Assembly: GCF_012910905.1 (NCBI RefSeq)
Contig: NZ_WTVN01000005.1
Coordinates: 62,001-126,000, forward strand
Reading direction: 5' to 3'
DNA: 64,000 nt
DNA from: Aromatoleum toluvorans
GTDB taxonomy: Bacteria > Pseudomonadota > Gammaproteobacteria > Burkholderiales > Rhodocyclaceae
The notes below the pieces were generated by a model. It had not been told where the DNA came from, made no database searches, and saw only the letters and a list, made by a program, of their open reading frames with translations. Shown here in pieces: positions 7,942 through 63,144 of the stretch; within the stretch, counting starts at the first letter, position 1; every line of letters starts with the position of its first letter. A program made the position numbers and the translations under genes.

Positions 7942-8258
7942 GCGCGGCCGACGTTCCATTGTGGGCCGCGCTGCCGGCCGCCCTGCTGCTGATCTGCGGC
8001 GGCCTGCTGGCGCTCGTGGGCTCGCTCGGCCTGTTGCGCCTGCGCTCCTTCTTCGCCCGCATCCACGCCCCCACGATGGGCAGCACGCTCGGCGCCGGCT
8101 GCGTCCTGATCGCCTCGATGCTCACCTCGACGGCGCTGGCGCAGCGCCCGGTGGTCCATGAGCTGCTGATCACGCTGTTCATCCTCGTGACCGCACCGAT
8201 CACCACGATGCTGCTGATGCGCGCCGCGATCCTGCGCAGCGACCGGAGCGAGAGCTAA
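7938..8258 (+). CDS. mrpG: Na+/H+ antiporter subunit G (MrpG)
   Basis: A 106-residue, three-helix membrane protein with the MrpG signature GSLGLLRLRSFFARIHAPT and a last helix ITLFILVTAPITTMLLMRAA. It completes the mrpAB-C-D-E-F-G operon, which is therefore intact. The gene ends only 7 bp before the convergent SRPBCC gene, leaving no room for a conventional terminator between them. Confidence 0.93.
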   Translation: MSAADVPLWAALPAALLLICGGLLALVGSLGLLRLRSFFARIHAPTMGSTLGAGCVLIASMLTSTALAQRPVVHELLITLFILVTAPITTMLLMRAAILRSDRSES

Positions 8259-8265
8259 GGCAGCG

Positions 8266-8712
8266 TCAATCCGGAATCTCCGGCTCGACGAGCCGCGCCA
8301 GATGGTCGAGCGACTCCTGCCAGCCGAGGTAGCAGAACTCCGTCGGAATCGCCTCAGGGATGCCTTCCTGCACGACGTTCATTTCCGCCCCGCAGGCCAC
8401 CGCGCGCAAGGTGACCGTCGTCACCATCTCGCCGGGCAGATCGGTGGAATCGAACTTGTCGGTGTAGCGGATGCGCTCGTTCGGCATCAGCTCCAGATAG
8501 CTGCCGCCGAAGGAATGGCCGTTGCCGGTGCTGAAGTTCCTGAATGCCATCCTGAAAGTGCCGCCGACCCGGGCATCCAGGTGGTCGACCTTGCAGGTGA
8601 AGCCGTTGGGCGGCAGCCATCGGGCGAGGGCCTCCGCATCGAGGAAGGCACGGTAGATTTTCTCGGGTTTTGCACGCAGCACGCGGTGCAGGCGGACGGT
8701 ACCGGTCGGCAT
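8266..8712 (-). CDS. SRPBCC (START-like, AHSA1-type) domain protein
   Basis: A 148-residue single-domain protein: VRLHRVLRAKPEKIYRAFLD then ALARWLPPNGFTCKVDHLD, the beginning of the AHSA1/START-like helix-grip fold, and a C-terminal helix YLGWQESLDHLARLVEP. Members bind hydrophobic ligands or act as co-chaperone-like or polyketide-cyclase-like proteins, so the ligand here cannot be predicted. Neighbours give no functional hint. Family assignment is confident. Confidence 0.85.
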   Translation of the reverse strand: MPTGTVRLHRVLRAKPEKIYRAFLDAEALARWLPPNGFTCKVDHLDARVGGTFRMAFRNFSTGNGHSFGGSYLELMPNERIRYTDKFDSTDLPGEMVTTVTLRAVACGAEMNVVQEGIPEAIPTEFCYLGWQESLDHLARLVEPEIPD

Positions 8713-8983
8713 GATCTCTCCTTTCGTTGGGGCTCGACGTCGCGGCTGTCGTCGCCGCTTCCCATACCTTAGTCGACCGCCGGTGCAGCAGGTCGGCCGT
8801 TACGGAAATTTTCCGGTGACCATCGCGGCTCCCGCGCAGGAACCATCTCTTTTTCGCCGGTGTCTCCACGCGATATGGGACACCATCGCAAGGGCTGTCG
8901 CCCCCTCGCGGCGGTCGAACGCTCCACCGGCGAAAACTTCACTGAGTTCGCCGCCCCACACCGTATCGCCGAAGCAGAACAAC

Positions 8984-9895
8984 ATGAAGCTTGATGCGGA
9001 AAGCAAGGCCAGAATCGCGTTCGCCGTGTTCCTGCTGCTCCTGGCGGCAGGCGGGCTCGGCTGGTACCTGCTGTCGGCCGCTCGCTACACGCTCTACCAA
9101 ATCCGGACGAACGACCCGGTCTCGGGGCTGATTCCCGATGCGCCGGTCGAATACCACGGCGTGGACGTCGGCAAGGTCGAGCGCGTCGACCTGGTCGACG
9201 CGCGCTCGATCCGCGTGGTGCTCGCCGTCCGCGCGGACGCCCCGGTGAGCGCGGCGACCGTCGCGACGATCACGAGCCGCGGGGTCGCGACGCGCGGATT
9301 CACCGGCTACGTCTACATTGCCCTCGAGGATGCCGGCACGGCTTCCGGCCCGCTCGTCGCGCGCCCCGGCGAGCCGTACCCGACCATTCCGACGACCGCG
9401 TCGAAATCGATGAGCCTCGATCTGCTGATCAGCCAATTGAACGACAACGTCCAGTCGCTGACCGGACTCGTCCACGGCCTGCTCGACCGCGACACGATCG
9501 CCGCGCTGAAGGAATCGGCGGACAACCTGCGGCAAGTCACGAAAACGCTCGCGGACAACAACGCCCGCCTGAACACGCTGATCGCCAACGGCGAGGCCGC
9601 CAGCCGCCGGCTGCAGCCGCTGCTGCAATCGAGCCAGCACACCATCGACTCGTTGCAGCCGCTGGTGCGCTCGAGCCAGGACCTCGTCGCCACGATGCAG
9701 CCGCTGGTGCGATCGAGCCGCGACACGGTCGATGCGCTGCAGCTCCAGCTGGTGCCGCAAGCCTACCGCGTGCTCACGCAGCTCGACGAGCTGACGGTGT
9801 CGCTCGACGGCATCGCCGACAAGGTCAGCAGGGACCCCATCTCGGTCATCCGCGGCGCCCCGGCGCGGCGCCCCGGACCGGGGGAGCGGCCATGA
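8984..9895 (+). CDS. MlaD-family MCE protein (lipid transport substrate-binding component)
   Basis: A 303-residue inner-membrane-anchored protein. Residues 8-30 form one transmembrane helix (ARIAFAVFLLLLAAGGLGWYL). The MCE domain follows at about 35-120 (DPVSGLIPDAPVEYHGVDVGKV; then GVATRGFTGYVYIALE). The rest is a predicted long helix containing a 14-residue tandem repeat. Such proteins form hexameric rings or tubes that carry lipids between membranes, normally with an MlaF ATPase and MlaE permease. Neither partner gene is adjacent; only the auxiliary lipoprotein follows, overlapping by 4 bp. The start at 8984 gives a correct membrane anchor; longer upstream reading has no domain content. 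Confidence 0.85.
   Translation: MKLDAESKARIAFAVFLLLLAAGGLGWYLLSAARYTLYQIRTNDPVSGLIPDAPVEYHGVDVGKVERVDLVDARSIRVVLAVRADAPVSAATVATITSRGVATRGFTGYVYIALEDAGTASGPLVARPGEPYPTIPTTASKSMSLDLLISQLNDNVQSLTGLVHGLLDRDTIAALKESADNLRQVTKTLADNNARLNTLIANGEAASRRLQPLLQSSQHTIDSLQPLVRSSQDLVATMQPLVRSSRDTVDALQLQLVPQAYRVLTQLDELTVSLDGIADKVSRDPISVIRGAPARRPGPGERP
9611..9736 (+). repeat. 42-bp tandem repeat (3 copies) inside the MCE gene
   Basis: Three in-frame 42-bp units start at 9611, 9653 and 9695. They encode LQPLLQSSQHTIDS, LQPLVRSSQDLVAT and MQPLVRSSRDTVDA, i.e. a 14-residue (two-heptad) repeat suited to a helical tube or coiled coil. A weaker fourth unit (LQLQLVP...) follows. Confidence 0.85.
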
Positions 9896-10500
9896 CGGGC
9901 GCGCGCCGCGCTGCGCTGTGCATGATGCTGGCGGTCGCGCTCTCGGGCGGTTGCACGCTGCTCGCCCCGCCAGGCCCCGAGCCCGACAAGGAGATGCTGA
10001 CCGCGATTCCGTCCGACCTCCCGGCCCGTCCGCGGCGCGGCGCAACCCTGCTGGTCTTTCCGCCCGAGGCGAACGCGATCTACGACACGGCGCTGATGGC
10101 CTACATGGACCAGCCCGGCCGCATCGCCTATTTCAGCCGCACCGAATGGGCCGCACGGCCCCCGCAGATGCTCAGGGCGCTGCTGCTGCGGACCCTGGAC
10201 CGATCGGGCTATGTCGGCGCCGTCGTCACGCCGCCGTTCGCGGGACGCATCGGCTGCGCGCTGCGCACCGAGATCGTGGCGTTCGAACAGGACTTCACCA
10301 CCGAACCACCGGCCTTCCACCTCGCGCTCCGGCTCAGCCTGATCCCGGCCGGGGACGGCGCCGCCATCGCCACCCGGGAAGTCGAGCTGCGCGAACCGCT
10401 GGCCGAACGCACGCCGCACGGCGGCGCCGTCGCCGCCAACGCGGCTATCGCGAAGGCGCTGAAGGAAGTGGCCGAGTTCGTGCACGCCCACGCGGGCTGA
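9892..10500 (+). CDS. ABC-type transport auxiliary lipoprotein (PqiC/DUF330-like)
   Basis: A 202-residue lipoprotein with signal peptide and lipobox LSGGC (Cys at about residue 22). The body (LLVFPPEANAIYDTALMAYMDQPGRIAYFSRTEWA split over residues 52-86, then PPQMLRALLLRTLDRSG) matches the family of auxiliary outer-membrane lipoproteins that accompany MCE transporters, such as PqiC. It probably docks the MCE protein to the outer membrane. The start overlaps the MCE stop (ATGA), so the two are co-translated. Its 3' end overlaps the convergent cytochrome b561 gene by 56 bp. Confidence 0.82.
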   Translation: MTGARRAALCMMLAVALSGGCTLLAPPGPEPDKEMLTAIPSDLPARPRRGATLLVFPPEANAIYDTALMAYMDQPGRIAYFSRTEWAARPPQMLRALLLRTLDRSGYVGAVVTPPFAGRIGCALRTEIVAFEQDFTTEPPAFHLALRLSLIPAGDGAAIATREVELREPLAERTPHGGAVAANAAIAKALKEVAEFVHAHAG

Positions 10501-11071
10501 GACCGTCGGTACGCGCGCGGGCAGGCAGCATCTTCCGCAGCGTCTCGTCGCGCAGCACGAAATGATGCTCCAGCGCCGCGCCGACATGCAGGGCGACCAG
10601 CAGCGTCAGCGCATAGCCCAGCCACTGGTGGAGCGCCAGCAGGAAGCGGAACAGGTATTCGTCGTACCGGACCAGGTCCGGCAGGTAGAACAGGCCGAAG
10701 AACGACACCGGGATGCCCGCCGCCGAAGACATCACCCAGCCCGTGACGGGCTGCGCGAACATCAGCGCGTACAGGCACAGGTGCACGAAGCGCGCCACCA
10801 CCTGCTGCCATTCCGGCAAGCCCTCGACCAGCCGCGGCAGCGCGTTGCCGACCCGCCACGCGAGCCGCAGCCCCGCGAGCATCAGCGCCAGGATGCCGAG
10901 CTCCTTGTGCAACAGCACCAGGCGGATCTTCGTCTTGTCGAAACCGACGTCGGGCAGTTGCGCCGCGTAGAGGCCGAGCACGACAAGCCCCGCCAGGAGT
11001 CCGGCCATCCCCCAGTGAAGGGCCATCGCCACGATGCCGTAGCACTGCTTCGTGTTGCCGAATTGCGCCAT
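10445..11071 (-). CDS. Cytochrome b561 family protein
   Basis: A 208-residue, four-helix membrane protein. Heme-ligand histidines are visible in VAMALHWGMAGLLAG (helix 1), RLVLLHKELGILALML, and the pair LLALHQWLGYAL and LLVALHVGAALEHHF. This is the classic b561 pattern, so it likely passes electrons between quinol and a periplasmic acceptor. The start at 11071 follows GGAGGG and gives a proper N-terminus (MAQFGNTKQCYG). The last 20 or so residues are Arg/Pro-rich and lie over the end of the convergent lipoprotein gene, so the tail may be non-functional extension. Confidence 0.88.
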   Translation of the reverse strand: MAQFGNTKQCYGIVAMALHWGMAGLLAGLVVLGLYAAQLPDVGFDKTKIRLVLLHKELGILALMLAGLRLAWRVGNALPRLVEGLPEWQQVVARFVHLCLYALMFAQPVTGWVMSSAAGIPVSFFGLFYLPDLVRYDEYLFRFLLALHQWLGYALTLLVALHVGAALEHHFVLRDETLRKMLPARARTDGLSPRGRARTRPLPSAPSR

Positions 11072-11171
11072 CGCCGCGATGCCCTCCGGAGAACCGCCAC
11101 CGCAGTTCGACATGCACGCCCCCGCAAAGCTCCCGCCCGGTCGCTCGCGGCGCCTGTCCGCGCGGGAAAAA

Positions 11172-11432
11172 ATGAAAGTTTCGTTTATACGCGAACCATT
11201 CCGCCAGGACCCCGCTGGCGCCGGCATTCTGGAACGACCAGATGAACGATCGCACCGTGCTGGCCACAAAGCTGGCGAACTCGGCGATGGAAGCGCTGGC
11301 CGACCACCTCCATCCGGAGTTCCATCCCGTCATCGGCAAGCTCAAGGACATGCCCTCGGCATGGTGCTGGCGATGAATCCGGGCGCCGCGGTCGTGGCGG
11401 TGATCGCGCTGTACGCTACGCTCGCTGCGTAG
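11172..11432 (+). pseudogene. dgkA: Degenerate diacylglycerol kinase (dgkA) remnant
   Basis: Pieces of the small membrane enzyme DgkA can be read, but in different frames. IREPFRQD (from 11172, frame a) matches the N-terminal AAFRQE region. LANSAMEALADHLHPEFH and GKLKDMPSA (from 11242, frame b) match the catalytic core, in which family members read NSAIEA(V/L)VDRI...H...GRAKDMGSA. MVLAMNPGAAVVAVIALYATLAA (frame a, ending 11432) matches the last helix. About 15 residues between the first two blocks are missing and there is another frameshift near 11358. The gene cannot make an active kinase. It marks the left edge of the AT-rich island. Confidence 0.72.
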
Positions 11433-11925
11433 CGAATCAGCTTTACTTGGGTGGGGCGAGATATCGTGACTACAGGCTACGGGCGACGGGTTGTCGGCCG
11501 GAGCGGCCAGCCGGTTGGCGCCTACTTTACGGCGGCAATATGGTCTATTGCCGGCATTCATCTCAGTGCTAGAGCTGCGCAGCCGGGTCTGAAAGACGAA
11601 ATCGTCGAATATCAGGCTGGCCTCATCCATCCCGTTCGGTGGCGATGCCGGCAATCAGTGGATAAGCAAAGCCTCTAAGTCGTATACAGACGTTATCCGG
11701 GTGACGAGGTATGCTCACCTTTTGAGTGACAGCGACATTTCAGTTATCCCGATGCCACTGTGGTTGTCGGTTCATCTTCACTGGCGATGACATTTCCACT
11801 CGGATCTCGCCTCTAGAACTATACTTCTGACTCGGATTCATAAAATTGGCGCAAACAGCTTCGATACTCGTGCGTAGCATCGGCTGAGAACCACGTAGAT
11901 CGATACTCTTTCTATAAATTACACA
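11433..11925. other. Gene-free, AT-rich left part of island
   Basis: Nearly 500 bp without a convincing intact gene. It starts with a small inverted repeat (CGCTACG...CGTAGCG, 11414-11434), then drops in GC relative to the flank. It contains only the possible integrase tail listed separately. AT-rich sequence just upstream of 11926 (ATACTCTTTCTATAAATTAC) may hold the promoter of the abortive-infection gene, with TATAAA as a candidate -10. Confidence 0.5.
11650..11790 (+). pseudogene. Possible C-terminal fragment of a tyrosine recombinase (integrase)
   Basis: One frame reads SYTDVIRVTRYAHLLSDSD before a stop at 11788-11790. 'xxxRYAHLxxD' is the usual sequence just around and after the last catalytic region of phage-type tyrosine recombinases. 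No preceding HxLRH or LGH box is readable and no start exists, so if real this is a relic of an integrase that once lay here. The match is short and could be chance. Confidence 0.28.
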
Positions 11926-12798
11926 ATGAAGACTTCGCGTCTGATCTATTTCGTCCTGATCGCATTAACCTCAATGCTGGTTGTTGTCGGATTTTATTTT
12001 TATAGTTTTCATGGTCCGCTAAGCACATCCAATTCAGACTGGGGGACCTTTGGTGACTATTTTGGCGGAGTCCTTAATCCGTTGTTTGGTTTTCTAAGCT
12101 TGATGGCGATTTTGGCTACAATCACATTGCAGAGCGCCGAAATGGACCTAACTCGCAAAGAGTTAGAGCGCGCCGCTAGGGCGCAAGAGAAATCTGAAAT
12201 GGTGCTTAACGCCCAAGCGAAAACTCAAGAAAGGCAGCAGTTTGAAGGAACGTTCTTCTCTCTCCTCAATGAGCACAACAAGGCGCTGCAGGAAATCTCC
12301 AGCCCTGACCTCGGAGCCCGCAAAGGGTTAAGTCGCGTTGATGATTTGTACGGCGATGTCTTTTACATGACACTCAACCTTTCACAGTCAAGATCCGCCT
12401 TCGCGCAAAGCAACCGTCTGTGCGGGAAGTATTTCAGGATCTTGTATCAGATCTTAAAGTTTATCGCGGTTGAGTGCCCCGACGGATCCGTCGGGGAAGA
12501 ATTTGGATCTGAAGGCATAAAGGGATCATCTGTAGCACGTTCGGAAAAAATGTACGCGAATATGGTTCGAGCATTCATTCCGGACAAGGCTCTCCAACTG
12601 CTCGCAATAAACTGCGCATGCGACTCGCCCGTTGATGCGTTCTGGAAATTCAAACTTCTTCTCGAGCGCTATGAATTCTTAGAGCACATGCCATTCGATA
12701 TTGAAGACCATAAAGGATCTCAATTAATGGAATTGACAAATATTTACGAGCGATCAGTTTTTGGATCGACCATCTATTTACCCGATGATGATACCTAG
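11926..12798 (+). CDS. Putative phage abortive infection protein (AbiC-like, membrane-anchored)
   Basis: A 290-residue protein. Residues 6-28 form a transmembrane helix, and 42-68 (TFGDYFGGVLNPLFGFLSL onward) a second hydrophobic segment with the 'FGDxxGGVLNPxFxFLS' motif common in the putative AbiC family. A coiled coil covers about 70-105. The soluble part begins FEGTFFSLLNEHNKALQEI and ends with ALQLLAINCACDS...FKLLLERYEFLEHMP, which resembles the family's conserved C-terminal block (L..ElllL.yN......f..l...Y.lf). Members are thought to stop phage by killing or arresting the infected cell; this is known only as a family label. GC content is far below the surrounding genome, consistent with transfer. 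Family call from memory of motifs, not a search. Confidence 0.7.
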   Translation: MKTSRLIYFVLIALTSMLVVVGFYFYSFHGPLSTSNSDWGTFGDYFGGVLNPLFGFLSLMAILATITLQSAEMDLTRKELERAARAQEKSEMVLNAQAKTQERQQFEGTFFSLLNEHNKALQEISSPDLGARKGLSRVDDLYGDVFYMTLNLSQSRSAFAQSNRLCGKYFRILYQILKFIAVECPDGSVGEEFGSEGIKGSSVARSEKMYANMVRAFIPDKALQLLAINCACDSPVDAFWKFKLLLERYEFLEHMPFDIEDHKGSQLMELTNIYERSVFGSTIYLPDDDT

Positions 12799-13089
12799 TT
12801 TTCGCGTTGAAGGCTTATTTTTCCATTCATCAAAGAACCCGCTTTGGGCGCGGCGACCTGACGGGGTGACATCTGACGTTGGGATCTAAAGCGGGATCGA
12901 CGACAGCATTAAAGGACGCTGGATCTGAACACATTTCGTACGCACCATCCTCTGCTTCGAGCGCCCTGGTGAGACGCCCTACCGCCACACTTCACAGCAC
13001 GTGCGCATCTGGCCAAAAGTCACAAGTTTGCGCCCTCTTTTTCAGACTTTTGCACTCCATCTGGCCTTCTCGCCCAAACAATCAAGAAT

Positions 13090-14880
13090 ATGCGTATATC
13101 AATTTCTCCGTACTGCATACATCTGGCGACTGTTGTTGTTCCGATAGCGCTCATGCTTGCATTGATACTATCGACCGGGCCGCAAATTCAGAACTATGCT
13201 TTATCACTTTTAAACAGCGGAAACCCTTCGATTTACGCTTCAGTCTATGGCGAAGAACTCATCAAATTTCCAAGATTAATGACATGGATAAGGGCTGGAT
13301 TCGAGTGGCAGTTCCTCTTGGCAGGAGCTGCGGTCGCTTTTGTTTGTGTTAGGCAATCCGCGCCCCGCATGCTTGCGTGGCGAGTTAGCGTCGCCACGTT
13401 CATGATTCTGTGTCTCGTTGATGCTGCAAACGCTGTTGTCACCGGGTCGGCGACGCTAGACTTTCTTGTGAAGAATCTTGTATCAAACGGCATAGGCGCA
13501 GTATTTTTGGGCGCACTTGTTCTAAGTTTTCTGCGTGCAGCTGATCTCCTCTACTCAAACTTGGAAGTTGGCGCTTTTTCTAAGCGTCTGACCGCCTCAC
13601 TGGCAATCCTCATCGCAGGATTTCTCACGTCTTGTTCTGTATATTACGTTTGCGAGTTGTTATTTAGCCCACGACCAACTGAAATCAAAGCTTACTTCGC
13701 CACGCCATCGAGTGGAACCATCGTGCCAAGACTATCTAATGAACTGGGCTCACCCAGCAAGGAAGGTCGTGTGCCATTTTCTTTCTTTTCTAGTCTTGCA
13801 ACTGCCGGGAATGCAACTTGGACAAACATCAATGGTGATTTGCAATTGACGCTATTGCAAGAAAAAGCCTCACAGAAATATCACGTGGATATTCATCTCA
13901 TTTCAGGCTGCAATACTTTTGACGCAATAAATGGGTTAGATTTCAGCAGGCCATGGATGACCTTTGATGAGGTTACCACTCTGCAGGCATCTACTGATAC
14001 TGGCATCACCCAGTTCTTAGCGGGCTCGCTTCAGGGGCATCATACGAAAATCAAAGTGGATTCCGGAAAGGTCGGATTTTTTGATTTCAAACGCGACTCA
14101 CAGTCTAATTCTCTATCACTTACACAATTTGTCGGAGATGACGCCCACCTCGAGCTATCTAGCTACGCTGATGACCTGCTGTTCGCCTTTTCCGCCTCAT
14201 TCTTGAACAAGAAAAATGATGAGTTGGCCAACTCTCCACGTTTCCTTAATTTGAAAATTGATAAGACGACGTATGTCATACAGTTTGTCCCACCCTTGAA
14301 ATCACCCTCAAACAAAGAAGTGACGTGCAAGGTGCTCGAACAAGACGGGCCGGCCAAGAACTCGCAACGAAGCTACGTTGAAATCGATGGCCGGGGACTG
14401 CTTCCGGGAGTATTGCTTAGGCTTCGGCCTAGCGACTTATCTGGAATTCGAAGGGTGCCCGCTGAAACGACTCTTCGAGTTCAAGGTGCAGATGGTTGGA
14501 TAGCGGTTCACGGACTAGAGATAGATAGCGTAGCCGGACAACCCCTCGGGCACCTGAAGATGTTTCATGTCAGAGGGAATATTCTCAACTTCATACTCGA
14601 CGAATCGTCAACCGCCGTCCAACCGTTCGATACGTACACAGCTATCGGAGAGTTGCAAGGTAATTTTAGCGCTGATGGAAACCTGCTCTTTTCCGGTCGC
14701 GCCGATAGCTTATGGAAAGGTAATGTAAGGGCGAATCTCACCAGATGGGAAAGACTGTCATGGGAGGCTAAAGTCTTTCTGCTCGGATTGCTTGGGTCGT
14801 TCGTCACCTTCATGGGCTCTTTGTGTTCTCGGTGGCTTCGTGAAAACAGACCGATTTCTTGGATTACGTACGCAAATTAG
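13090..14880 (+). CDS. Unknown 596-residue membrane protein of the AT-rich island
   Basis: I do not recognise this protein. Five predicted transmembrane helices lie in the first third (about residues 9-29, 72-88, 94-113, 127-150, 166-192). Residues about 195-555 form a large, mostly beta-type, non-membrane region without recognisable motifs, and one more helix lies at about 562-583 (LGLLGSFVTFMGSLCSRWL) before a short charged tail. This suggests a big extracytoplasmic or cytoplasmic sensor-like domain held between membrane anchors. It follows the AbiC-like gene by 291 bp, in which I see no gene, so it may have its own promoter. Codon use and base composition match that neighbour and differ from the genome, indicating a shared foreign origin. 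Coding is likely given the length in AT-rich DNA. Confidence 0.6.
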   Translation: MRISISPYCIHLATVVVPIALMLALILSTGPQIQNYALSLLNSGNPSIYASVYGEELIKFPRLMTWIRAGFEWQFLLAGAAVAFVCVRQSAPRMLAWRVSVATFMILCLVDAANAVVTGSATLDFLVKNLVSNGIGAVFLGALVLSFLRAADLLYSNLEVGAFSKRLTASLAILIAGFLTSCSVYYVCELLFSPRPTEIKAYFATPSSGTIVPRLSNELGSPSKEGRVPFSFFSSLATAGNATWTNINGDLQLTLLQEKASQKYHVDIHLISGCNTFDAINGLDFSRPWMTFDEVTTLQASTDTGITQFLAGSLQGHHTKIKVDSGKVGFFDFKRDSQSNSLSLTQFVGDDAHLELSSYADDLLFAFSASFLNKKNDELANSPRFLNLKIDKTTYVIQFVPPLKSPSNKEVTCKVLEQDGPAKNSQRSYVEIDGRGLLPGVLLRLRPSDLSGIRRVPAETTLRVQGADGWIAVHGLEIDSVAGQPLGHLKMFHVRGNILNFILDESSTAVQPFDTYTAIGELQGNFSADGNLLFSGRADSLWKGNVRANLTRWERLSWEAKVFLLGLLGSFVTFMGSLCSRWLRENRPISWITYAN

Positions 14881-15130
14881 GTGGCATTTTCTTGCATCCC
14901 AGTGCGAGCGCCAGAGCATGATGGGGTTTCTAGTCTAGGTTGTAGAGGGATTTGAGTCGCGCTCTACCGTTTCGCGAGAGTGATCACTGCCGTTTAAGTC
15001 CGCGGCGCACTGAATGGCAGCAATGGAGCGCGCTACGGGCCTTTGCGGTTGGGAAGCTGAACGACGGCTCAGGCCGAGAAGCCGGCGCAGACCCGCAACA
15101 GTCGACCACCCGGTCCCCTGGTTCAGAATT
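14881..15130. other. Gene-free right edge of island
   Basis: No gene, tRNA or clear attachment site could be found in this stretch. Composition returns from AT-rich to the GC-rich background at around 15000, which is taken as the right border of the island. Confidence 0.45.
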
Positions 15131-15159
15131 GAAAACGCCCGGACTAGCCGGGCGTTTTC
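15131..15159. terminator. Bidirectional rho-independent terminator after glmS
   Basis: Twelve-base-pair stem GAAAACGCCCGG / CCGGGCGTTTTC around a five-base loop, A-rich on one side and T-rich on the other. It lies 65 bp beyond the glmS stop and separates glmS from the island. Confidence 0.85.
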
Positions 15160-15224
15160 ATGAGGCCATCCAGTTTTCGACTTTAATCGTCAGGAGGAGG
15201 AGGAACAGCGGGCAAAAGTCCTCC

Positions 15225-17051
15225 TCACTCCACCGTCACCGACTTCGCCAGGTTCCGCGGTTTGTCGACGTCAGTCCCCTTCACCAGCGCCGCATGGTAG
15301 GACAGCAGCTGCAGCGGCACGACGTGCAGCACCGGCGACAGCATCCCGTAGTGCTCGGGCATGTGCAGAATGTGCACGCCTTCGGACTCGTGGATCTCGC
15401 TGCCCGCATCGGCGAAGACGTACAGCTCGCCGCCGCGCGCGCGCACTTCCTGCAGGTTGGACTTGAGCTTTTCCAGCAGTTCGTCGGCCGGCGCAACCGC
15501 GATGACAGGCATTTCCTTGTCAACCAGCGCGAGCGGGCCATGCTTGAGTTCGCCGGCGGCGTAGGCCTCGGCGTGGATGTAGGAGATCTCCTTCAGCTTC
15601 AGCGCGCCTTCCATCGCGATCGGCCAGTGCTGGCCGCGGCCGAGGAAGAGCGCGTGCTGCTTGCCGGCGAAGCGCTGCGCCCAGCGCTCGATCTCCGGCT
15701 CGAGTTCGAGCACTTTCTTCACGGCGACCGGCAGGTGGCGCAGCGCGGTAAGGTACCGCGCCTCGTCCGCTTCCGGCAGGCGGCCGGCGAGCTTCGCGAG
15801 CGACAGCGTCAGCAGCGCCAACGCGGCAAGCTGGGTCGTGAAGGCCTTGGTCGAGGCGACGCCGATCTCGGGGCCCGCGCGCGTGATGAAGCGCAGCGCG
15901 GCCTCGCGCACGATGGCCGACTCGGGCACGTTGCAGATCGCCAGCGTCCGCTGCATGCCCTGAGCCTTCGCGTGCTTGAGCGCCGCGAGCGTGTCGGCGG
16001 TTTCGCCCGACTGCGAGATCACGACCACCAGCGTGCCAGGATGCGCGACCGATTCGCGGTAGCGGTACTCGCTCGCGATCTCGACGCTGCACGGCAGCTT
16101 CGCGATCGCCTCGATCCAGTAGCGCGCCACCAGGCCCGCGTGGTAGCTCGTGCCGCAAGCGAGCACGAGCACGCGCTCGACCCCGCCCAGCAGCTCGGGC
16201 GCGCGGGTGCCGAAGAGCTGCGGTGTCACCGATCCGCCGCCGGCGATGATCTCCAGCGTATTGGCGAGCGCCTGCGGCTGCTCGAAGATTTCCTTCTGCA
16301 TGTAATGGCGGTACTGGCCGAGCTCGACCGCGTCGGCGGACAGGCTCGACACGTGCATCGGGCGCTCGACCGGCGTGCCGTCCGGGCGCGCGATGCGGTA
16401 GCCGTCGAGGCGCAGTTCGGCGATGTCGCCATCCTCAAGGTAGATCACCTTGCGCGTGACCTGCAGCAGCGCCGCCGTGTCGGACGCCGCGTACATCCCG
16501 TCCTCGCCCACGCCCAGCAGCAGCGGCGCGCCGTGGCGCGACACGATCACGCGCGCGGTGTCGGATTCGCACACCACGCCGATCGCGTAGGCGCCGACGA
16601 GTTCGTTGGTCGCCAGGCGCACCGCCTCGAAGAGGTCCGGCTGCGTCGCGAGCTTGCTGTGCACCAGGTGGGCGATCGCCTCGGTGTCGGTCTCCGACGC
16701 GAACTCGTAGCCCTGGGCCATGAGGCGCTGCTTGATCGACTCGAAGTTCTCGATGATGCCGTTATGCACGACGGCAAGGCCCGCCGATACGTGCGGATGC
16801 GCGTTGCGCTCGGACGGCACGCCGTGCGTCGCCCAGCGCGTGTGCGCGATGCCGATGCCGGCGTCGAGCTTCTTCTCCTCGGCACGCGCCGCGAGTTCGG
16901 CGACGCGGCCGGCCGCGCGCACGCGCTGCAGCCCGCCGTTGAGCACCGCCAGGCCGGCGGAATCGTAACCGCGGTATTCGAGCTTGCGCAGGCCTTCGAG
17001 GAGGACGGGGACGACGTTCTGCGTCGCGATGGCAGTGACGATGCCGCACAT
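15225..17051 (-). CDS. glmS: Glutamine--fructose-6-phosphate aminotransferase
   Basis: A 608-residue enzyme making glucosamine-6-phosphate from fructose-6-phosphate and glutamine, the first step to UDP-GlcNAc for peptidoglycan and LPS. The N-terminal nucleophile is Cys2 (MCGIVTAIA), followed by the glutaminase motifs [16 protein letters not shown] and HTRWATHG. Two SIS sugar-isomerase domains follow ([39 protein letters not shown]), ending with the canonical NLAKSVTVE. It lies 15 bp downstream of glmU in the same operon. Confidence 0.98.
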
Positions 17052-17066
17052 GATGCTTTCTCCGAC

Positions 17067-18425
17067 TTACTTCTTCTTCACCGGCCGCTTCCAGCCGGCA
17101 ATGGTGATCTGCCTGGCCCGCGACACGGTGAGCTGCTCCGGCGGGGCGTCCTTGGTGAGGGTCGTGCCGGCGCCCAGCGTCGCCCCGCGGCCGACGCGCA
17201 CCGGCGCGACGAGCTGGGTGTCCGAGCCGATGAACACGTCGTCCTCGATGATGGTGCGGAACTTGTTCGCGCCGTCGTAGTTGCACGTGATCGTGCCGGC
17301 GCCGATGTTCACGCGCTGGCCGACGTCCGCATCGCCGACATAGGCGAGGTGGTTGGCCTTCGAATGGTCGGCGATCGCGCTGTTCTTGACCTCGACGAAA
17401 TTGCCCAGATGCACGTCGTCGCCCAGCGTCGTGCCGGGACGCGTGCGCGCATACGGGCCGATCACGCACTCGCGGCCGGTGACCGTATCCTCGACGTGCG
17501 AGAACGCTGCGATGCGGGTGCCGGCGCCGATGCGGGCGTTGCGGATCACGCAGTGGGCGCCGATCCGCACGTCGTCGCCGAGTTCGACGCGCCCCTCGAA
17601 CACGCAGCCGACGTCGATCTCGACATCGCGCCCGCATTCGAGCTCGCCGCGCACGTCGATGCGCGCCGGGTCGAGCACCGTCACGCCCGCTTCCATCAGG
17701 CGCTGGGCGATGTTGCGCTGATGGATGCGTTCGAGTTCGGCGAGCTGCGGCTTGCTGTTCACGCCCAGCGTCTCCCACACCGCATCCGGCTGCACCGTGA
17801 CGATCTCGACGCCCTCGGCGACCGCCAGCCCGATGATATCGGTGAGGTAGTACTCGCCCTGGGCGTTGTCGTTGCCGATGCGTCCCAGCCAGTCGCGCAG
17901 GCGCGCCACCGGCGCGACGAGGATGCCGGTGTTCACTTCGCGCACGCGGCGCTGCTCGGCGCTCGCATCCTTCTCTTCGACGATGCGCGTGACCTGGCCT
18001 TGGTCGTCACGCAGGATGCGTCCGTAGCCGGTCGGATCGGCGAGTTCCACGGTCAGCAGCGCGAGCTTGCCGCTGCCCGCCGCCGCCTGCAGGCGACGCA
18101 GCGTCGGCGCGCCGATCAGCGGTACGTCGCCGTACAGCACCAGCGCCATCTCGCCGTCGCTGAGCTCCGGCAGCGCCTGCTGCACGGCGTGCCCCGTGCC
18201 CAGCTGCGGCTCCTGGCGCGCCCAGCGCAGCCCCGCATCCTGCAGCCGCTCACGCACCACTTCGCCGCCGTGGCCATACACCACGCAGATGCGCGACGCG
18301 TCCAGCGCCCTCGCCGCAGCGATCACGTGCGCCAGCATCGGACGCCCGGCAATCGGCTGCAGCACCTTCGGCAATACCGAACGCATACGCTTGCCCTGCC
18401 CGGCCGCGAGAATCACGACTTCCAT
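17067..18425 (-). CDS. glmU: Bifunctional GlmU: glucosamine-1-P acetyltransferase / GlcNAc-1-P uridylyltransferase
   Basis: A 452-residue enzyme that acetylates glucosamine-1-phosphate and then makes UDP-GlcNAc. The N-terminal nucleotidyltransferase domain has [17 protein letters not shown]; the C-terminal left-handed beta helix shows hexapeptide repeats and the active-site segment [20 protein letters not shown], with YVGDADVG and [10 protein letters not shown] after it. Start at 18425 preceded by GGAG. Together with glmS it supplies cell-wall amino sugar. Confidence 0.98.
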
Positions 18426-61836: not shown

Positions 61837-63144
61837 TCAGAACGCCATCGAATACTGCGCGCCGAGGAGCCACACGCTGGAGTCGTATTCGCCGGTCACG
61901 CGGCCGCGGCCGTCCGCGGTCTGGTCGTTGTCGATCCTGGTCTTGGGCACGATCAGATAGGCCACGCCGAGGTCGAGCGCGTTGGTCTTGCTGAGCTTCC
62001 ACTGCGCGCCGGCGCTCAGCCAGGTGCGGTTGTTGTCCGGCAGCGACACGAGGCGGCGCTCCTTGTCCTTCACCGGTGACTGGTCGTAGGCGACGCCGAA
62101 CTTCAGCTTCCACGCGTCGTTGAGCAGGTAGTTCGCCCCGAGCGCGACGCGCCACGTGTCCTTGAACTCGGTGTGCAGGGTCTGGGCGGTCGAACCGCTC
62201 AGCACGCCGGAAGTCCGCACGATGTCGACCTGCTTGACGCTGCTCCAGCCGGTCCACGACAGGTCGCCGAGCATTTCCCAGCGGTTGTCGAGCTTCTGCG
62301 CGACGCTGACGATGAAGGTGTCGGGCAGTTCGACATCCGCTTCGGCCTTGACCGAACGCAGGGTCGGCGCAAGTCCCGCCGCCGGCCCCGCGATCTTGAG
62401 GTCGCCTTTCAGCGTGTGATCGATCTTCGAGCGGTACGACATGCCGACCTTCATCGACGGCGACAGGGTGAACAGCGCGCCGACGTTCCAGCCCCACGCG
62501 TCCGAATCGGCCTCCAGGGTCGCGGTTGTCGCGTTCAGGCCGGGCACGCGCGAGATGCTAGTCGGCAACACGGTGGCGACGCGCTTGTATTCGGCCTCGA
62601 AGCGCTGCCAGTTCAGGCCGGCGCCGATCGACACCTTGTCGTTCACGCGCCAGGCAACGGACGGGTTGATGTTGATCGACTTCAGATCGAACTTGACCGC
62701 CTGCGCGCGACCGACCCAGTCGTCGTCATACTCGGTGACGAGGCCGAAGGGGGCGCCGATCCCCACGCCGAGATACAGATCCTTGTTCAGCGCCCATGAC
62801 AGGTAGGCGTTGGGAATCGCCGCCCACGAGCCCGCGTCACCTCCGCCACCGGAAGTCGGAATGCGCGGCGCGTTCAGGACGACGGAGCCCTTGTTCTCGA
62901 AGTCGAAACTCGGCCGCACCGCCGCGACACCCACCGACACTTCGCGCGCCTGCAACTGCGTCATGCCGGCCGGATTGAAGAAGATCGTGCTCGCGTTCTC
63001 GGCGACCGCAGCCGAGCCCGCATAGGCGTTGCCGATGCCGCTAGCGTTCTGTTCGAGCAGCTGGAAGCCGCCCGCCGACGCGGCGCCGGAGCCGAGCGCG
63101 AGCAGCGCGGCGGGAAGCAGGCGGGCAATCGTCGTTTTCTGCAT
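61837..63144 (-). CDS. FadL-family outer membrane transporter
   Basis: A 435-residue outer-membrane beta-barrel protein of the OMPP1/FadL/TodX family. Signal peptide ends ASAG; the mature start GGFQLLEQNASGIGNAYAG and NASTIFFNPAGMTQL is the family's hallmark (hatch domain with NPA motif). It ends WLLGAQYSMAF, with a C-terminal Phe as in barrels. It should import fatty acids or hydrophobic compounds for the enzymes next to it. Start at 63144 follows GAGGAG. Confidence 0.93.
   Translation of the reverse strand: MQKTTIARLLPAALLALGSGAASAGGFQLLEQNASGIGNAYAGSAAVAENASTIFFNPAGMTQLQAREVSVGVAAVRPSFDFENKGSVVLNAPRIPTSGGGGDAGSWAAIPNAYLSWALNKDLYLGVGIGAPFGLVTEYDDDWVGRAQAVKFDLKSININPSVAWRVNDKVSIGAGLNWQRFEAEYKRVATVLPTSISRVPGLNATTATLEADSDAWGWNVGALFTLSPSMKVGMSYRSKIDHTLKGDLKIAGPAAGLAPTLRSVKAEADVELPDTFIVSVAQKLDNRWEMLGDLSWTGWSSVKQVDIVRTSGVLSGSTAQTLHTEFKDTWRVALGANYLLNDAWKLKFGVAYDQSPVKDKERRLVSLPDNNRTWLSAGAQWKLSKTNALDLGVAYLIVPKTRIDNDQTADGRGRVTGEYDSSVWLLGAQYSMAF

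Follow-up and report, generated by a model that had tools for sequence, protein, structure and literature searches.

What is the AT-rich DNA that lies downstream of glmS in Aromatoleum toluvorans, and do the two genes that it carries belong together? We examined this locus in a window of 64,000 nucleotides (positions 62,001 to 126,000 of contig NZ_WTVN01000005.1), to which all coordinates below refer unless another sequence is named. An initial annotation had described positions 11433-15130 as a foreign island with two genes, one for an AbiC-like protein (open reading frame 1, ORF1) and one for a membrane protein (ORF2), and had proposed that the pair acts jointly against phages. The explanation we favour, and hold to be fairly probable, is that a small slot downstream of glmS takes exchangeable cargo, and that here it holds two foreign genes which most likely travel and act independently.

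The composition of the locus sets it clearly apart. The low-GC (guanine plus cytosine) block, to which we assign no strand, lies between a broken dgkA and the terminator of glmS; it spans 3560 bp (3.56 kb; 11509..15068) and has a GC content of 0.486, as against a mean of 0.681 (sd 0.024, minimum 0.622) over 531 overlapping windows of the same length placed wholly outside it. In 1-kb windows GC drops to a trough of 0.47-0.49 at 11.5-15.0 kb and lies at 0.60-0.75 in those that do not touch the block, and GC at third codon positions is 0.52 in ORF1 and 0.48 in ORF2 versus 0.92 in glmS and 0.90 in glmU. The longest open frame in the block has 635 codons, compared with 213 for the longest among 200 mononucleotide shuffles. 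Both long genes lie on the forward strand, ORF1 at 11926..12798 and ORF2 at 13090..14880. Thus the description of the island as AT-richer than its flanks, foreign, and carrying two long genes on one strand was confirmed; its span needed trimming, as each edge had taken in about 60-75 bp of flank common to a sister species (genome G013). On the left this is the DNA 3' of dgkA (11433..11508), where similarity to G013 stops at about 11508; on the right it is the DNA outside the glmS terminator (15069..15130), which is common to four other members of the genus. No match to the island DNA was found in plasmids.

The sister species shows most directly what kind of position this is. G013 matches both flanks, at 92.6-92.8% identity over 8216-11205 and 15069-18019 and at 85% over 11256-11508, and no similarity to it was found between 11508 and 15069. 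In place of the block, G013 carries (at 9984-12838 of locus L089) two genes in DNA of likewise lower GC (0.57-0.58), one for a protein kinase (PF00069, 59.6 bits) and one for a TPR protein (TPR_2, 30.6 bits), and these match a candidate defence pair in PADLOC (PDC-M71A, 1.6e-99; PDC-M71B, 2e-95). Because the flanks are shared and the cargo differs, the position is a variable slot with defence-type cargo. The locus is therefore replaced by other DNA in a relative, as the initial annotation had suggested checking, and is not a conserved core locus of equally low GC. Of the other 16 genus genomes, 11 contributed glmS-side stretches to the comparison. In G013, G010, G003 and G006 the shared sequence begins at 15069 or 15072, and the DNA beyond differs in each; in G006 glmS stands at a contig end and the left flank is on another contig. 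A search for dgkA in 12 stretches found it in G013 alone. The position therefore varies, and two genomes show the dgkA-glmS slot itself. We regard the different defence-type cargo of the sister species as the most useful addition to what had been noted before.

The block showed no recombinase gene, no repeats at its edges and no ends of Tn7 type, and no recombinase is among the genes of either block, here or in G013. The two edge regions (11401-11960 and 14861-15230) have no 10-mer in common. Imperfect repeat pairs of 14-31 nt near the edges were considered and discarded, as they look like chance. A scan for the attC pattern of integrons gave no hit in the block, but it carries no weight, as it also gave none in two Vibrio arrays that served as control. 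The simplest guess is entry by homologous recombination between the flanks. We also weighed whether the block derives from a Tn7-like element that inserted at the attachment site of glmS and has since decayed. It begins 156 bp beyond the glmS stop, the Tn7 protein TnsD recognises the end of glmS, and defence systems seem to be abundant in Tn7-like elements (PMC11406308). However, the block holds two genes only, the edges in the window lack TGT/ACA ends with a 5-bp duplication, and neither here nor in G013 is a 5-9 bp duplication combined with a 10-of-16 terminal repeat. TniQ matches occur in six of the 17 genus genomes (five above cut-off), but the sole one on the same contig as glmS, in a draft (G016), is about 86 kb away; a weak one in G013 is megabases off, and the others are on other contigs, a comparison limited by contig breaks. 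Having found no terminal repeats with a 5-bp duplication, no tns genes and, on the contigs examined, no TniQ match in the vicinity of glmS, we rejected a Tn7-like origin, which we consider very improbable. The locus is an example of two close relatives with different defence-type cargo in one small slot without a recombinase gene, a pattern that can help to locate unrecognised defence genes from where they lie.

ORF1 encodes a protein of 290 amino acids (aa) which matches the Pfam family putAbiC (PF16872, putative phage abortive infection protein) over residues 166-258 with 48.8 bits, well above the gathering cut-off of 22, so that its annotation as AbiC-like held up. Its own matches to the PADLOC models are weak (AbiP, E = 0.0015; AbiC, E = 0.04 over 25 residues). 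Among 11 aligned family members, however, 10 match putAbiC at E <= 0.01, seven match AbiP (best 3.9e-13) and five match AbiC (best 1.5e-6); these members were chosen from the hits, and the alignment omits the weaker or short L025, L027, L029, L036, L037 and L038, the hits in G075, G115 and G120, and all phage-record and plasmid hits. ORF1 is 24-45% identical to these relatives. Hydropathy and a structure model predict two transmembrane helices, a long helix and a helical C-terminal part; the model is all-helical, with a mean predicted local distance difference test score (pLDDT) of 65.7 and a very long helix at 39-125. A fold search with the model gave nothing below E = 0.1 in PDB or BFVD (best 0.36 and 0.10), and the sequence itself matched no PDB sequence up to E = 1; the alignment used for the structure included four of the seven viral relatives. 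The most conserved motif of the family, which reads DWGTFGDY..GG..NP in ORF1, stands between the two predicted helices and runs into the second: G40, G43, D44 and G47 between the helices and, where the second one begins, L50 and N51 are invariant in all 11 members. The N-terminal hydrophobic helices with a G..GD..G..LN motif are common to phage and chromosomal relatives and lie outside the Pfam model. Judged by these matches, ORF1 adds an ordinary new member to a known defence-type family.

Relatives of ORF1 occur in seven phage records, 29 plasmid records and seven viral contigs, and the family is thus phage- and plasmid-borne; matches to PHROGs, up to 2.2e-31, are to families of unknown function. 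The relatives often look foreign by composition: in L021, L022, L024, L028 and L029 their GC is 0.41-0.49 versus stretch averages of 0.61-0.66, whereas that in L025 is intermediate (0.54 vs 0.62) and those in L023 (0.52 vs 0.54) and L027 (0.61 vs 0.64) do not look foreign. On a Vibrio alginolyticus plasmid, a relative of 37.5% identity (L110 4974-5828) is the sole full gene between two repeats of about 125 nt, which belong to a family of eight copies with 60-100% identity. We take this repeat array to resemble the cassette arrays of integrons. A one-gene cassette of this kind favours an ORF1-type gene that works alone. In another genome (G027, L021 6647-9687), three tandem low-GC genes stand in a stretch of higher GC; two of them are ORF1 relatives, and the relative of 327 aa passes the putAbiC cut-off.

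ORF2 (596 aa) is of a different kind. The initial annotation had found no recognisable family for it, and in four libraries nothing reached a cut-off: the best matches were E = 0.22 in Pfam and E = 0.14 in NCBIfam, with none up to E = 1 in PADLOC or PHROGs, nor in PDB sequences searched with a three-sequence profile. A single-sequence AlphaFold2 model was unusable (mean pLDDT 36.2). Two relatives were found (P0001 and P0004), one on plasmid pRlX2 of Rhizobium johnstonii (26% identity, 97% of the query covered) and one in genome G209, which belongs to the same class as this organism (21% identity). All three proteins align end to end and keep C182, C274 and C413, of which C274 and C413, in the large domain, could pair in a disulfide. 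Hydropathy places helices near 9-27, 69-87, 94-112, 130-148, 167-185 and 562-580, that is, five N-terminal transmembrane helices and one at the C-terminus (in the G209 protein the second falls under the threshold). The six predicted helices agree with the earlier description of a multi-pass protein; that description was incomplete, as by hydropathy a single stretch free of membrane helices makes up about 60% of ORF2. The loops predicted to lie inside and the C-terminus carry a net positive charge and the large domain (~190-555) a net negative one, and on charge and hydropathy this domain of about 370 residues is probably periplasmic.

Profile searches detected ORF2 in two of 398 genomes of the phylum (this one and G209), in one of 349 in the order (this one) and in one of 247 in the family of G209 (G209 itself). 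Scans of contigs used short peptide patterns, which miss distant relatives; within this limit, none was found in viral contigs (queries P0002, A1, P0001 and P0004) or in genome contigs (P0002 and A1). Phages gave none with P0002 and P0001, and plasmids gave one record, with none from P0004. By these alignments and searches ORF2 is a rare orphan family with distant homology to two relatives, an uncharacterised group of proteins with conserved features that was found through its slot position.

The surroundings of the relatives hint at accessory or defence islands. The relatives are AT-richer than the DNA around them, in Rhizobium with a GC of 0.512 versus 0.588 and in G209, by a small margin, with 0.519 versus 0.54. 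The neighbours in Rhizobium are annotated toxin-antitoxin-type genes and a gene that matches LmuA (1.1e-9); those in G209 are a transposase-like piece, a gene which reads as filamentous haemagglutinin-like and a match to pVip (2.7e-9). The LmuA-matching gene (L016 10220-11056) is downstream of the Rhizobium relative, with one small gene between them. The G209 relative (L020 9650-11767) is, by reading, in frame with an upstream transposase-OrfA-like start.

These neighbourhoods allow more than one role for ORF2. It may have no part in defence and be a passenger with an accessory role at the envelope or surface, for example in bacterial competition, which is a serious if tentative possibility; the haemagglutinin-like gene and transposase-like piece next to the G209 relative would suit such a role, as would the lack of any PADLOC match up to E = 1. 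The neighbourhood evidence also points the other way, as the Rhizobium relative is near toxin-antitoxin-type genes and the LmuA match, and in G013 a candidate defence pair occupies the slot in which ORF2 lies here. At the other extreme, ORF2 might found a new and very rare single-gene family of envelope defence, in which an inner-membrane anchor would carry a disulfide-bonded periplasmic domain that intercepts phage DNA entry, and whose AT-rich genes would travel as cargo between a plasmid of Rhizobium and chromosomes of a different bacterial class; we think this unlikely.

Do the two genes act together? Under the proposal of one antiphage module, ORF2 would be an envelope phage sensor and ORF1 a membrane-anchored killer or blocker. 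The genes are adjacent on one strand in one slot, are similar in composition and both encode predicted membrane proteins, and two viral contigs (L034 and L035) have a membrane-protein gene directly upstream of a putAbiC gene. Co-occurrence nevertheless argues against a module. Among 121 related genomes, ORF2 was detected in one (this one) and ORF1-like genes in 10, and the only genome with both is this one; nine of the 120 others have an ORF1 relative without a detected ORF2. Far from being everywhere without its partner, ORF2 is almost nowhere. Neither of its two other carriers has a PF16872 match, G209 having been searched whole and Rhizobium on the plasmid only. The two genes are moreover separated by a gap of 291 bp, the membrane-protein neighbours in L034 and L035 gave no sign of kinship with ORF2 (hhalign probability 0.5%), and one plasmid relative of ORF1 is the one-gene cassette described above. 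Thus the claim that the pair works together was not borne out: the pairing is a single example, the evidence leans against it, and we judge a joint module quite unlikely. The lack of co-occurrence and the one-gene cassette are our reasons for treating ORF1 and ORF2 as independent. The arrangement in the two viral contigs (L034 4834-6831; L035 4447-6846), where an uncharacterised six-helix membrane protein is encoded upstream of a putAbiC-family gene, is a candidate pair of its own, the two membrane proteins being 28% identical to each other.

Several observations weigh against the reading of two independent cargo genes, or against details of it. ORF1 and ORF2 are in tandem on one strand, and a scan of the region detected neither a sigma-70 promoter-like site nor, between the two genes, a terminator-like one, so that co-transcription is possible. 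Independence is drawn from few cases, namely one co-occurrence and two other ORF2 carriers, one of them represented by a plasmid only. The link of ORF1 to AbiP and AbiC goes via its relatives, given the weakness of its own matches, and its structure model is of moderate confidence and has no structural match below the threshold used above. The predicted outside loop of ORF2 at 28-68 has a charge of +1, and the topology is thus not clear-cut. To our knowledge, no phage experiment with the ORF1 gene has been made.

With two independent cargo genes as the preferred reading, ORF1 would most likely work alone, as an abortive-infection-type protein. Its two N-terminal helices would anchor it in the inner membrane, with the conserved motif between them probably on the outer face, and the long cytoplasmic helix and helical putAbiC domain would act inside the cell. 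We infer that it serves in defence, where it would probably engage phage nucleic acid or replication and so halt infection, as reported for the related AbiP. AbiP is membrane-anchored and nucleic-acid-binding according to a reference given in PMC10127798, and the same article describes PdpSau, which is encoded by a Staphylococcus prophage and has a similar predicted structure, as stalling phage replication and affecting the membrane. ORF2 would be cargo in its own right, a protein of the inner membrane whose two ends lie inside and whose periplasmic domain bears the two conserved cysteines; we would guess at a role in the envelope, for instance in blocking phage entry. If neither gene affects phages, the locus is ordinary accessory DNA.

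The genes that border the slot have histories of their own. As had been annotated, dgkA is broken: only its 3' half is left (11256..11432, forward strand), split across two frames; its counterpart in the sister (L089 9283-9639) is an open gene of 118 residues, to whose 3' part it aligns. Just upstream, a remnant of 48 bp (11204..11251, forward strand) is 85% identical to L089 8871-8918, part of a gene that reads in translation as DedA/PAP2-like, and appears to have been left by a deletion. At the point corresponding to 11205, G013 carries thioredoxin-like, membrane, PAP2-like and DedA/PAP2-like genes (all by reading of translations) and the open dgkA. Since half of dgkA remains, the likeliest account is that the window has lost two pieces, of about 3.6 and 0.5 kb, relative to G013. 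These two deletions, just outside the island, took the 5' half of dgkA and, wholly or for the most part, four genes. They end about 250 bp from the island edge, and the event looks like one separate from the island.

On the other side, glmS (15225..17051, reverse strand) is the core gene that borders the slot; it is an open reading frame of 608 aa, named from the initial annotation and our own reading of the sequence, with a DNA match in all 17 genus genomes, this one included. Its terminator-like sequence, read directly, is a perfect palindrome ending in TTTT (15131..15159, no strand assigned), which the terminator scan did not flag. Between this palindrome and glmS, at 15170-15187, stands the short sequence CCAGTTTTCGACTTTAAT; this genome has it there once, and other members of the genus (seen in G013, G003, G010 and G001) have up to three near-copies. 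Searched against the rest of the genome, the left and right flanking stretches gave only self-matches and the self-match of the palindrome, and no RNA families were found in 10500-16000.

Among known systems, the lactococcal AbiP and AbiC proteins are approached through the family of ORF1, whose aligned members match both models, and differ in that ORF1 itself matches them weakly; nucleic-acid binding, described for AbiP, would extend to ORF1 by analogy. The likeness to putAbiC is closer, as ORF1 scores above the cut-off and has the N-terminal motif common to its relatives, and nothing notable distinguishes it from that family. The kinase and TPR pair PDC-M71 has genes unrelated to ORF1 and ORF2 and is itself only a candidate, but it occupies the dgkA-glmS slot of G013 at the same position as the two genes here, and to that extent it shows that the slot accepts defence-type cargo.

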